A stretch of 64,000 nucleotides of DNA from Micropruina glycogenica (GTDB taxonomy: Bacteria > Actinomycetota > Actinomycetes > Propionibacteriales > Propionibacteriaceae). The position numbers and the translations under genes were made by a program. Location: positions 992,001-1,056,000 of the forward strand of contig NZ_LT985188.1 in NCBI RefSeq assembly GCF_900289045.1, given 5' to 3'. The notes beneath the pieces were generated by a model, which worked only from the letters and a program-made list of their open reading frames with translations, was not told the DNA's origin and did not search any database. Positions 40,194 through 45,028 of this stretch are shown piece after piece; within the stretch, counting starts at the first letter, position 1; every line of letters begins with the position of its first letter.

Positions 40194-43100
40194 CTACACG
40201 CAGGACGGCCCGAGCAGGGCCTTCAGGTCGGCCATCAGGGGCGGTGACGGCATCACCCGCAGGGTTTCTTCGAGCTTCCACACCGTGGTGCGGTTGCTCG
40301 ACGTGGTCAGCCGCACCCGCACCTCGGTGGCGCCCGGGTGGTTGGTCAGCACCGTGCGCAACTGCTGCACCACCGCCGGCGTGCAGCGGGCCGCGGGCAG
40401 TGAGATGACGACCGGCCCGGTCGGGCCCTCGGACACGTCGGGGAAACTCACATCGGTGCCCCGCAGCTCGACGCCCTCGTCTTTGCCGACCAGCTTGCCC
40501 TTGATGCGCACGATGGTGTCGGTGGCCAGCTGCAGCGCCACCAGCTGGTAGGCCTTGGGAAACAGCAGCACCTCGATCGAGGCCTCCAGGTCTTCGACCG
40601 TGACGATCGCCCACAGGTCGCCGGTCTTGGTCTGCTTGCGGGTGACCTGGGTGATCATGCCGGCGATCGAGGTGGTGATGTCGCGCGGCCCGTCCTCGGC
40701 CACCAGAGCGCCGATCGAGTGGTCGCGGTTCGCCAACAGCACGTGTTCGAGGCCGAGCAGCGGGTGGTCAGACACGTACAGCCCGAGCATTTCGCGCTCG
40801 AACGCGAGCCGAACGCGCTTGTCCCACTCGTCCACCTGCGGAATCGGGCTGCTGACCAGCGCCTCGCCGTCGCCGGCGTCGCCGAACAGGTCGTCCTGGC
40901 CGTTGGCCTGGTTGCGTTTGAGGTCGATGACCTCGTCGACCTTCTGCTCGTAGCACTCCATGAGCGAGCGCCGGGTGTGGCCCAGGGAGTCGAACGCGCC
41001 GGCCTTGATCAGCGACTCGATCACCCGCTTGTTGCACACCACGAGCGGAACGTTGCTCAAGAACTCGTTGAAGTCGTGCGCCTTACCGTGCTCGTCGCGC
41101 CCGGCGACGATGCCGTTCACCACGTTGTCGCCCACGTTGCGAATGGCGCCCAACCCGTAGCGAATGTCGGTGCCCACCGGGGTGAACATGCCGTCGGACT
41201 CGTTGACGTCGGGCGGCAACACCTTGATGCCCATGCGCCGGCACTCGGCCAGGTAGACCGCCGACTTGTCCTTGTCGTCCTTCACCGACTGCAGCAACGC
41301 CGCCATGTATTCGGCCGGGTAGTTGGCCTTGAGGTAGGCGGTCCAGTACGAGATCAGCCCATAGGCGGCGGTGTGGGCCTTGTTGAACGCGTAGTCCGAG
41401 AAGGGCACCAGAATGTCCCACAACGACTTGATCGCGCCGGCTGAGTAGCCGTTGGCGGTCATGCCCGCGGCGAAGCGGTCGTACTCCTTTTCGAGCACTT
41501 CCTTCTTCTTCTTGCCCATCGCCCGGCGCAGTTCGTCTGCGGCACCGAGGGTGTAGTTGGCCACCTTCACCGCGATCTGCTGCACCTGCTCCTGATAGAC
41601 GATCAGGCCGTAGGTGAGGTCGAGGATCTCGGCCAGCGGTTCGGCCAGCTCGGGGTGGATCGCGGTGATCGGCTGCTTGCCGGTCTTGCGCAGCGCGTAG
41701 TTGGTGTGGCTGTTGGCCCCCATCGGGCCCGGCCGGTACAGCGCGAGTGCGGCCGAGATGTCTTCGAAGTTGTCGGGCTGCATCTGCCGCAGCAGCACCC
41801 GCATGCCGCCGCCGTCCAACTGAAAGATGCCGAGCGTGTCACCCGTGGCCAGCAGTTGGTAGGTGGACGGGTCGGTGGGGTTCTTGCTCAGCGCGTCCAG
41901 ATCGAGGTCGACGCCGCGGTTGGCCTTCACGTTGGCGAGCGCGTCGTCGAGAATGGTCAGGTTGCGCAGGCCCAGGAAGTCCATCTTGACCAGGCCGAGC
42001 GCCTCGCAGCTCGGGTAGTCGAACTGGGTGATGATCTGACCGTCGGCCTCGCGCTTCATGACCGGAATCACGTCGAGCAGCGGTGCCGAGCTCATGATCA
42101 CGCCGGCGGCGTGCACGCCCCACTGGCGCTTCAGGCCCTCGATGCCGCGGGCCGTGTCGACCACCTCTTGTACCTCGGGGTCGCTCTCGTACAACGCCCT
42201 GAACTCGCCGCCCTCGGCGTAGCGGGCGTGCTGGGGGTTGAACACCTCGGGCAGCGGCACGTCCTTGCCCATCACCGGCGGCGTGTAGGCCTTGGTGATC
42301 TTCTCACCCAGGCCGAACGGCTTGCCCAGGACACGTCCGGCGTCTTTGATGGCCTGCTTGGCCTTGATGGTGCCGTAGGTGACGATCTGACACACGTGGT
42401 CGTCGCCGTACTTCTCGGTGACGTAACGGATCACCTCACCGCGTCGGCGCTCGTCGAAGTCGATGTCGAAGTCGGGCATGGACGGACGTTCGGGGTTGAG
42501 GAACCGCTCGAAGATCAGCCCGTGCGGCACCGGATCCAAGTCGGTGATGCGCAGGGCGTAGGCGCACATCGAACCGGCGCCCGAGCCGCGTCCGGGGCCC
42601 ACCCTGATGCCGTTGTTCTTGGCCCAGTTGATGAAGTCGGCCACCACCAGGAAGTAGCCGCAGTTGTGCACCGCGATGCCTTCAGCCACATAGGTGTGGT
42701 CACCGCTCACTGTCAGATTGTGCACGGTGCCCTGATACGCCTGACGCGCTGTGGCCCTCACACGTACCCACCAACGGCCGTCGACGTGGCGGGCGTTGTA
42801 CGGGGCCTTGGTGCGCGTGGGAATCCACTGAACCTTCCAGGTCTTCTGACTCGGGCTTCTGTCCACTACCGCCCATTGCCCGATGGACAGCAGCAACGAA
42901 CGGAGTTGTCTGGCCAGCACGTCGTTGACAGTCGTGATTCCAACGCGAGTCCGGTCAGCGTGACCGTCGCCCTCGAGCCACCCGGAGATGAACGACCTGA
43001 TGCCGCTTTCCGGAAGAGATGAAATCCACGGGTGGAGCTTCTTGTTGCGAACCCCGCAGCCAACCAGTTCTTGCAGCAGAAGTGCCAATGGATGGTTGGT

Positions 43101-44822
43101 CAGCATCACTGTGACACCCTGATGGTTCGGGGCGCAGTCGCTTGCTTTGGAATACAGACGAGGCTCGCCCAACTTGAGGGATTCGATCGTTTGCATGAGG
43201 CGGCTGACCGCCGGTTCATCTCGATGAAGAGTCCATCCGATCTGTCCCGGGCTCGTCGGTGCGCTCGGATCAACCAGGTGACCCTCGGCCACCCACAGAC
43301 CGATGAGCCACATGAGGTCGGCTGACCACTCAACCAGGCAGGGCAGGCTCCCGCTCGCCGGGCGGGGCGAGCGCACGTCACTCGTGCACATCCGCGTGAA
43401 CGACTGGTCTTCGCCATGAGACAGTGTCCAGCCCCGGGCAACGGCTGCGGCTTCAAGATCAAACGGCGCATAGGTGGGAGGCTCCGCCTGAGGTAGCAGC
43501 AGCCAGTCCCCGGGCTGCACCTGCGATGCCGGCACCCAGCCCTTGGAGTCGACCAAGAACGGATGCTCAGCAGTGGCTCGCACTTCGTTCGTCTGGCCGA
43601 AGGGGTGGATGACGCAAATCTCTTCGTCAACGACCCGCGAAATTACGTCTTCGACCACGGCCGGGCGGCCCTTGAGGTTCCAGGTGCTGACCGACGTGAT
43701 CTCATCACCTACACGAATCGACTCGATCGGCCGCCACGTGCCGTCACCCAGCAACACCTGGGTGCCGGGAGGGAAGCAGTACCCCTTGTCGGTAATGACT
43801 TTGGTCTCGAACTCGGCCTGCTCGGTGGCGTAGCTGGGCACGCCTTCGGGAAAGCGCACCTCGAGCCCGTGGCGCACTTCTTTGGCGAACCACGACTCTT
43901 CGGTTTCGCCGGCTGGCACCGGAAATTGCGCCATGTAGGTGCCGGTGCCCTCGTCGAAGTGGGTTTCGCAGCGTTCGGCGATGGCCAGGGTGTTGTCGCA
44001 CGCCTCGGGCAGTTCGGCCCAGATGCGGCGCATCTCGGCCGGGCTCTTGAGGTAGTAGCCGTTGCCGTCGAACTTGAACCGGTTGGGGGTGTCGCGGTTC
44101 GAGCCCGACGACACGCACAGCAGCGTGTCGTGCGCCTCGGCGTCGTCGGCGTGCACGTAGTGCAGGTCGTTGGTGGCCACCAGCGGCAGCTTGAGGTCTT
44201 TGGCTATGCGCAGCAGGTCGTGCCGCACGCGGCGCTCGATGGCGAGTCCGTGGTCCATCAACTCGACGTAGAAGTTGCCGGCGCCGAAGATGTCGCGAAA
44301 CTCGGCCGCCGAGGCCAGCGCCTGGTCGTACTGGCCCAGACGCAGGTAGGTCTGCACCTCGCCCGAGGGGCACCCGGTGGTGCCGATCAGCCCCGACTTG
44401 TACTCGTGCAGCAGTTCGCGGTCGGCGCGTGGCTTGTAGAAGAAGCCCTCCAGCGAACTGCGCGAGCTGAGCCGAAACAGGTTGTGCATGCCGGCCGAGT
44501 TCTCGGCCCAGATGGTCATGTGGGTGTAGGCGCCCTTCGACGCCACGTCGTCGCCGGTGCCGTCGCCGAACTGCACCCGCTTGCGCTCGCCGCGGGGAGT
44601 CTTGGGTGTGAGGTAGGCCTCGAGGCCGATGATCGGCTTGACCGCGCTGCCCTTGGCCACCTTGTACCACTCGTAGGCGCCGAACAGGTTGCCGTGGTCG
44701 GTCACCGCCAGCGCCGACATGCCCATCTGCTCGCAGCCCTTGACCAGGTCTTTGAGTCGTGCGGCGCCGTCGAGCATCGAGTACTCGCTGTGGCAGTGCA
44801 GATGCACGAACCCATCGGCCAT
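40194..44822 (-). CDS. dnaE: DNA polymerase III alpha subunit, intein-containing precursor
   Basis: The 1542-residue precursor encodes the replicative polymerase. The PHP domain starts at residue 7 (HLHCHSEYS, TDHGN), and the polymerase core includes VGPGRGSGAGS and the catalytic Asp residues in PDFDIDFDE and later VKMDFLGLRNL. Helix-hairpin-helix, OB-fold (TTSIAGMITQVTRKQTKTGD, cited in full at 20) and C-terminal regions are complete. The frame is interrupted in phase by an intein at residues 349-720, between KGY and CGYFLVVADFI. After splicing the protein is 1170 residues, normal for DnaE1. The start is the ATG at 44822 (MADGFVHLHCH). Confidence 0.96.
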   Translation of the reverse strand: MADGFVHLHCHSEYSMLDGAARLKDLVKGCEQMGMSALAVTDHGNLFGAYEWYKVAKGSAVKPIIGLEAYLTPKTPRGERKRVQFGDGTGDDVASKGAYTHMTIWAENSAGMHNLFRLSSRSSLEGFFYKPRADRELLHEYKSGLIGTTGCPSGEVQTYLRLGQYDQALASAAEFRDIFGAGNFYVELMDHGLAIERRVRHDLLRIAKDLKLPLVATNDLHYVHADDAEAHDTLLCVSSGSNRDTPNRFKFDGNGYYLKSPAEMRRIWAELPEACDNTLAIAERCETHFDEGTGTYMAQFPVPAGETEESWFAKEVRHGLEVRFPEGVPSYATEQAEFETKVITDKGYCFPPGTQVLLGDGTWRPIESIRVGDEITSVSTWNLKGRPAVVEDVISRVVDEEICVIHPFGQTNEVRATAEHPFLVDSKGWVPASQVQPGDWLLLPQAEPPTYAPFDLEAAAVARGWTLSHGEDQSFTRMCTSDVRSPRPASGSLPCLVEWSADLMWLIGLWVAEGHLVDPSAPTSPGQIGWTLHRDEPAVSRLMQTIESLKLGEPRLYSKASDCAPNHQGVTVMLTNHPLALLLQELVGCGVRNKKLHPWISSLPESGIRSFISGWLEGDGHADRTRVGITTVNDVLARQLRSLLLSIGQWAVVDRSPSQKTWKVQWIPTRTKAPYNARHVDGRWWVRVRATARQAYQGTVHNLTVSGDHTYVAEGIAVHNCGYFLVVADFINWAKNNGIRVGPGRGSGAGSMCAYALRITDLDPVPHGLIFERFLNPERPSMPDFDIDFDERRRGEVIRYVTEKYGDDHVCQIVTYGTIKAKQAIKDAGRVLGKPFGLGEKITKAYTPPVMGKDVPLPEVFNPQHARYAEGGEFRALYESDPEVQEVVDTARGIEGLKRQWGVHAAGVIMSSAPLLDVIPVMKREADGQIITQFDYPSCEALGLVKMDFLGLRNLTILDDALANVKANRGVDLDLDALSKNPTDPSTYQLLATGDTLGIFQLDGGGMRVLLRQMQPDNFEDISAALALYRPGPMGANSHTNYALRKTGKQPITAIHPELAEPLAEILDLTYGLIVYQEQVQQIAVKVANYTLGAADELRRAMGKKKKEVLEKEYDRFAAGMTANGYSAGAIKSLWDILVPFSDYAFNKAHTAAYGLISYWTAYLKANYPAEYMAALLQSVKDDKDKSAVYLAECRRMGIKVLPPDVNESDGMFTPVGTDIRYGLGAIRNVGDNVVNGIVAGRDEHGKAHDFNEFLSNVPLVVCNKRVIESLIKAGAFDSLGHTRRSLMECYEQKVDEVIDLKRNQANGQDDLFGDAGDGEALVSSPIPQVDEWDKRVRLAFEREMLGLYVSDHPLLGLEHVLLANRDHSIGALVAEDGPRDITTSIAGMITQVTRKQTKTGDLWAIVTVEDLEASIEVLLFPKAYQLVALQLATDTIVRIKGKLVGKDEGVELRGTDVSFPDVSEGPTGPVVISLPAARCTPAVVQQLRTVLTNHPGATEVRVRLTTSSNRTTVWKLEETLRVMPSPPLMADLKALLGPSCV
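42663..43778 (-). mobile_element. Intein with LAGLIDADG homing endonuclease in DnaE
   Basis: The 372-residue insertion starts at Cys349 of the precursor (CFPPGTQVLLGDGTWRPIES, block A). It has the block B motif ATAEHPFLV (intein residues 68-76), block F VHNLTVSGDHTYV (352-364) and ends in AVHN, followed by Cys+1. Thus all splicing nucleophiles (Cys1, Asn372, Cys+1, the penultimate His and the block-B His) are present. The two DOD endonuclease helices are LIGLWVAEG (158-166) and FISGWLEGDG (263-272), both with their acidic residue. The DNA is visibly less GC-rich than the flanks, supporting horizontal arrival. Confidence 0.95.
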
Positions 44823-45028
44823 CGGGTGTTTCGACCTCCAAAGACGTGGTGGACGCACGGCGGATCGCCAGGGGGAAGTCCAGCGGAGAGCCCCACCCTA
44901 ACCCCACGTCCGACAGGTTCCAGGCGACACTCGCGACGACGGTCGTCCGGTCGGCGTGTCGCACCGCCCGAGAAATCGACCTTACTGATCCAGCCGACCC
45001 AGGGCTCGGAGCTACCGACGAGAGGAGG

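Follow-up and report, generated by a model that had tools for sequence, protein, structure and literature searches.

A predicted class 1 intein with a LAGLIDADG endonuclease in the dnaE gene of Micropruina glycogenica, followed by a cysteine that is unusual at this site within the family

Inteins are usually described from sites at which the host protein conserves the Cys, Ser or Thr needed for splicing. In the window, the 64,000-nt stretch of Micropruina glycogenica DNA analysed here, the polymerase gene dnaE holds an insertion followed by a Cys, a residue that is unusual at this DnaE position within the family. The locus is a bacterial case for two questions: does an intein carry its nucleophile in with it or depend on alleles that are already permissive, and do empty sites preserve a record of earlier occupation?

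The dnaE precursor frame (40194-44858, minus strand) has a GTG start and encodes 1554 aa; residues are numbered here from MADGFVHLHC, which begins at residue 13 of this frame. The insert occupies exactly 42663-43778 on the minus strand, in frame, with 372 codons. It starts at Cys349 and ends in HN, the extein picks up again at Cys721, and without the insert DnaE has 1170 aa. A preliminary description of this DNA had placed the insertion between these residues, and its borders were confirmed to the base. The insertion is not due to chance, because four genomes of the same genus (G001, G002, G004 and G005) show dnaE without it. The earlier impression of a lower GC content also held, with 62.4% in the insert vs 66.0% in the extein and a GC3 of 0.734 vs approximately 0.927, the minimum GC3 among extein stretches of insert length being 0.898. 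The features are as follows.

43779..44822, minus strand: N-extein, residues 1-348 from MADG, PHP domain included (frame, profiles)
43779..43838, minus strand: last 20 N-extein codons, with Thr at -5; tract compared between alleles (allele comparison)
42663..43778, minus strand: intein, Cys1 to Asn372, 372 codons (residues, family profiles)
43485..43778, minus strand: N-terminal splicing part, residues 1-98 (profiles, alignment; border set by us)
43563..43574, minus strand: block B TAEH, residues 69-72 (T69, E71 and H72 invariant in 3/3 copies)
42813..43343, minus strand: LAGLIDADG endonuclease part, approximately residues 146-322 (LAGLIDADG_3 at 260-318, PI-PkoII at 148-304; borders set by us)
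43281..43307, minus strand: first DOD motif LIGLWVAEG, residues 158-166, acidic E165 (invariant in 3/3 copies)
42963..42992, minus strand: second DOD motif FISGWLEGDG, residues 263-272, acidic D271 (D271 invariant in 3/3 copies)
42663..42812, minus strand: C-terminal splicing part, residues 323-372, with the HN end (profiles, alignment; border set by us)
42660..42662, minus strand: Cys+1 codon TGC, first of the C-extein and presumed nucleophile for splicing (alignment, +1 comparison)
40194..42662, minus strand: C-extein and stop codon, beginning with CGYFLVVADF shortly before VGPGRGSGAGS (frame, profiles, structure alignment)

Searched alone, the insert matched the Pfam profile Intein_splicing with 42.0 bits (cut-off 35.8) over residues 18-372, both ends being spanned, and LAGLIDADG_3 with 31.3 bits (cut-off 22.5) over residues 260-318. 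Among the NCBIfam profiles, intein_Cterm scored above its cut-off and intein_Nterm narrowly below (23.4 vs 24.5), and comparison with solved structures aligned PI-PkoII to insert residues 148-304. Cys1, T69, H72, E165, K246, D271 and the terminal HN are invariant in all three full-length copies that were found. As in class 1 inteins, these copies (3/3) combine Cys1, a block B TxxH and an HN followed by Cys, the insertion is precise and in frame, and the site is empty in relatives; as in LAGLIDADG endonucleases, two DOD motifs with acidic E165 and D271 are present (3/3). Profiles and copies thereby bear out the splicing residues (Cys1, TAEH, HN, Cys+1) and the endonuclease with both acidic DOD residues that the preliminary description had read from the window. 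By these signatures the insert is a canonical class 1 intein carrying an endonuclease of the two-motif LAGLIDADG type, and it is predicted to splice and to cut. It is the single match of the Intein_splicing profile in its own genome. An AlphaFold2 model of the intein built from two rows (window and L061) was set aside at a mean pLDDT of 42.

Structure alignment placed the insertion shortly before the GS motif of DnaE, residue 2 of the C-extein probe aligning with residue 353 of 5lew, 401 of 3e0d and 339 of 2hnh, in agreement with the earlier assignment ahead of VGPGRGSGAGS. In the 3.84-Mb genome the C-extein probe gave one further match, 35% alike, which we infer to be DnaE2-like. Since this other match is just 35% alike, the split gene is the sole DnaE1-type copy found, and splicing of the DnaE precursor is therefore very likely, given that the splicing residues are present and that the whole polymerase is needed. 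Between the window genome and the second carrier of the genus (G003), dN/dS amounted to 0.09 in the C-extein (first 400 codons) and to 0.15 in the N-extein.

Full-length copies were found in two of the six genus genomes, the window's own (G000) and G003, and in 3/197 genomes of the family, the third (G517) belonging to a second genus in which 1/13 genomes carries one. The preliminary description had proposed a comparison with dnaE of close relatives, and four of the six genus genomes indeed have an empty site: the dnaE frame is uninterrupted in G001, G002 and G004, and in G005 it runs through the site until the contig ends. In the family search 24/197 genomes gave any match, the remaining 21 being partial and at most 46% identical. 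The order search (E limit 1e-12) returned full-length copies in 2/391 genomes and any match in 11/391; G003 is not among them and was presumably unsampled there, and G596 gave a 30% match over residues 1-341. Of 396 genomes in the phylum search only the window's own held a full-length copy, any match occurring in 49 and the others being at most 48% identical and mostly partial. Named genome contigs yielded one relative, on a Propionibacteriaceae MAG contig, which is the G517 copy itself. A donor was not found among phage, plasmid and viral-contig matches, which are 20-38% alike and in many cases partial, and the PHROGs search gave partial matches to two families of unknown function. A literature search on inteins, DnaE, actinobacteria and Propionibacteriaceae, covering few subscription journals, listed no report of the element.

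Several candidates were rejected. The pattern HN[C/S/T] before GYF, which also admits Trp, Arg and stop codons, matched 18/396 phylum genomes, and only the window locus continues into the GS motif. Among the stronger dnaE matches, which were those listed, G401, with a long frame (1478 aa), was excluded as a carrier by a continuous KGYAGYF at the site, and G421 and G468 by the lack of an insert there. Separately, the partial matches to approximately the first 100 residues among L034-L060 of the family sit for the most part in long frames, often of close to 2000 aa; these matches may be Hint domains of large proteins and not inteins.

Beyond the preliminary description, the comparison of alleles revealed that Cys+1 is unusual at this DnaE site and that the flank is changed. 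A DNA pattern matched 108/197 family genomes, each match being assumed to lie within dnaE, while the other 89, including the three carriers, stand outside this tally of empty sites. At these 108 sites the +1 residue is Ala in 49, Thr in 22, Pro in 19, Ser in 9, Asn in 5, Cys in 3 and Gly in 1. Cys+1 occurs at 3/3 occupied vs 3/108 empty sites, the latter belonging to two genomes of the window's genus (G001, G005) and to G532 of the G517 genus. Except for G004, all Ser and Thr residues at empty +1 positions fall into the genus g264, in which the family search found no full-length intein copy; a permissive +1 residue alone does not decide carriage, because these g264 sites lack such a copy.

The sequence preceding the site was compared in 44 rows, 7 Cys/Ser alleles (occupied or empty) vs 37 others, with G401, G492, G536 and G497 left out, G005 and G532 cut by contig ends and g264 represented by one row (G583); these tests ignore kinship, and five of the seven Cys/Ser alleles form one clade. 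A small residue (Thr, Ser or Ala, a grouping chosen post hoc with the data already seen) stands at -5 in 7/7 Cys/Ser alleles vs 2/37 others, the two exceptions being G583 (Thr+1, no intein) and G468 (Ala+1). This association would be expected if the Cys/Ser alleles were naive, with +1 and -5 covarying structurally, the intein living only on pre-existing alleles and the empty Cys sites never having been occupied, an explanation to which we give somewhat less than an even chance. A small -5 residue would accommodate Cys, Ser or Thr at +1, the exception G583 itself has Thr+1 without an intein, and Ser or Thr at +1 is found in the empty sites of g264. Moreover, the -5 letters vary by lineage (T, S, A), a pattern that one imported haplotype would not produce.

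The third codon positions argue against such naive alleles. In the last ten N-extein codons GC3 is at most 0.8 for 6/7 Cys/Ser alleles (0.50 in G004 and G532, 0.70 in G003 and G005, 0.80 in G517 and G000) vs 4/37 others (G552 0.50, G448 0.70, G423 and G496 0.80); the seventh, G001, is without the low-GC3 tract (0.90), as a naive allele should be. Relative to background, the 7 Cys/Ser alleles had a lower GC3 in these ten codons than the 37 others did (one-sided rank test, kinship ignored, p=0.0001), and the same test gave p=0.0006 for the last twenty codons and p=0.09 for codons 21-40 before the site. Over the last 20 codons, third-position differences were in excess of background (p<0.05) in 8/11 Cys/Ser pairs, which are not independent, vs 0/15 other pairs, hand-picked from close relatives with one further pair skipped as too short, kinship again being ignored. 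No significant excess was present in G001-G003 (p=0.078) or in G517-G488, which includes the change from Ala to Cys at +1 and differed at 6/20 third positions (background 0.20, p=0.21). When 656 allele pairs with a background below 0.40 were computed, the largest left-flank excesses among the pairs listed mostly involved G003, G004, G005 or G532, and naive pairs such as G002-G496 and G421-G496 also showed a large excess there. On inspection, third-position differences after the site showed no clear excess. In the window genome no flank import was seen, because its flank resembles that of the empty, Cys-bearing G001 (3/20 third positions different, background 0.24, p=0.88).

Taken together, two accounts of the flank remain, import of a short flank from the donor at homing, with scars, and a permissive allele with a compensating -5 change. 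The low-GC3 tract speaks for the former; the varied -5 letters, the Thr+1 allele of G583 and the clean G001 flank speak for the latter. On the former account the intein would have entered with a short donor flank and later been lost precisely while the flank stayed, so that the empty sites of G004, G005 and G532, each with Cys+1 or Ser+1, a small -5 residue and low GC3, would be scars of past occupation. We regard this as possible but doubtful. If it holds, site alleles record a cycle of gain and loss in genomes that are now without the intein.

An intein that splices while its endonuclease is dead or dying could have been inherited vertically in the genus and lost repeatedly, in G001, G004 and G005, and an intein-bearing ancestor would account for the Cys+1 common to G000, G001, G003 and G005, which lie in one clade. 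Nevertheless, E165, D271, Lys246 and the open frame are kept in 3/3 copies, the inteins within the genus are as distant as those between genera, and the nearest sister of G517, G488, has Ala and no intein, which together make this explanation improbable. Pairwise intein identities are 72.0, 70.4 and 70.9%, whereas the exteins (N-extein and first 400 C-extein residues) are 91-95% identical between G000 and G003 and 76-83% between G000 and G517. Strict vertical descent fits these values badly because the inteins are equidistant although the G000 and G003 exteins are 91-95% alike; with even rates this model does not yield equal intein distances. Across the three pairs pS of the intein is 0.59-0.75 and pN 0.21-0.23, synonymous differences being near saturation, which makes dates, dN/dS and ratios rough, and strong codon bias may compress extein pS. 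In every pair pS exceeds pN, for splicing and endonuclease sequence alike. GC3 is always lower in the intein than in the extein (0.734/0.926, 0.712/0.951 and 0.857/0.961 in the three carriers). In a quick dnaE tree of 43 rows, to which G532 was added afterwards and from which G401, G492 and G536 (Ala+1) are absent because they failed a motif filter, the intein-bearing G517 (Cys) groups as sister with the empty G488 (Ala) at an SH-aLRT of 99, and a clade comprising G000, G001, G003, G004 and G005 excludes the Ala-bearing G002. Three intein copies are too few for a rooted intein tree, and their distances point to at least one likely horizontal arrival among the three carriers.

In the C-extein of G517 (L099), 50-residue windows at approximately residues 250-350 past the site are 60-66% identical to G478, and elsewhere 74-96%. 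This could be a mosaic gene; because the divergence peaks so far beyond the site, we did not take it as flank import.

A non-splicing, Hint-like domain that forms a permanent part of DnaE is a highly improbable reading, for although splicing is here deduced from sequence, the splicing residues are conserved in 3/3 copies, the site is empty in relatives and the sole DnaE1-type polymerase found would have to carry the domain just ahead of its GS motif.

We consider it very probable that the insert is a class 1 DnaE intein with a full-length endonuclease which is horizontally mobile and brings or needs a changed flank. The DnaE precursor would be translated whole; Cys1 and Cys+1 would then perform the acyl shift and transesterification, and cyclisation of Asn372 would release the joined 1170-residue polymerase, these steps being the established mechanism of class 1 inteins. 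The endonuclease is predicted to cut other dnaE alleles at their empty site, and repair of these alleles would copy the element in, and the intein distances support its presumed horizontal movement between species of the family. As the usual +1 residue is Ala, Thr or Pro, productive insertion at an Ala or Pro site would need an altered +1, either through co-conversion of the donor flank or on a pre-existing Cys or Ser allele.

Among known systems, PI-PkoII and PI-SceI are LAGLIDADG class 1 inteins that likewise have terminal splicing blocks and a central endonuclease part; sequence matches of their structures to the dnaE insert are weak but aligned, similarity being low (E-values 9.5e-5 to 0.05 in a single-sequence search), and their host genes are other than dnaE. 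Cyanobacterial DnaE inteins share the host protein, and differ in being split, without endonuclease and at another DnaE site. The preliminary description had drawn this distinction, and it stands: FSDYAFNKAHTAAYG, which we take to be the region interrupted by the cyanobacterial split intein, is uninterrupted in the window DnaE. Another large intein was observed near the dnaE N-terminus in genomes from two further families within the phylum (G033, L004; G398, L009), following KPVIG or NPIIG and ending in HN before C-E-A-Y or C-E-L-Y, which we read as a second dnaE site within the PHP domain. Like the window intein these are large and have an endonuclease-like part, the likeness (33% for G033 over residues 145-367, 31% for G398 over 144-372) lying in the endonuclease and C-terminal parts. 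The principle of +1 co-conversion is not new, because it has already been inferred for the haloarchaeal MCM-d intein: in that system most empty sites have Pro after the site, which is non-permissive, and occupied sites have Ser, and the authors infer a few invasions by co-conversion, with a change from Pro to Ser being required (PMC10643990). MCM-d concerns an archaeal helicase and a change from Pro to Ser, whereas the present case concerns a bacterial polymerase, a change from Ala to Cys in the G517 lineage and a linked difference at -5.
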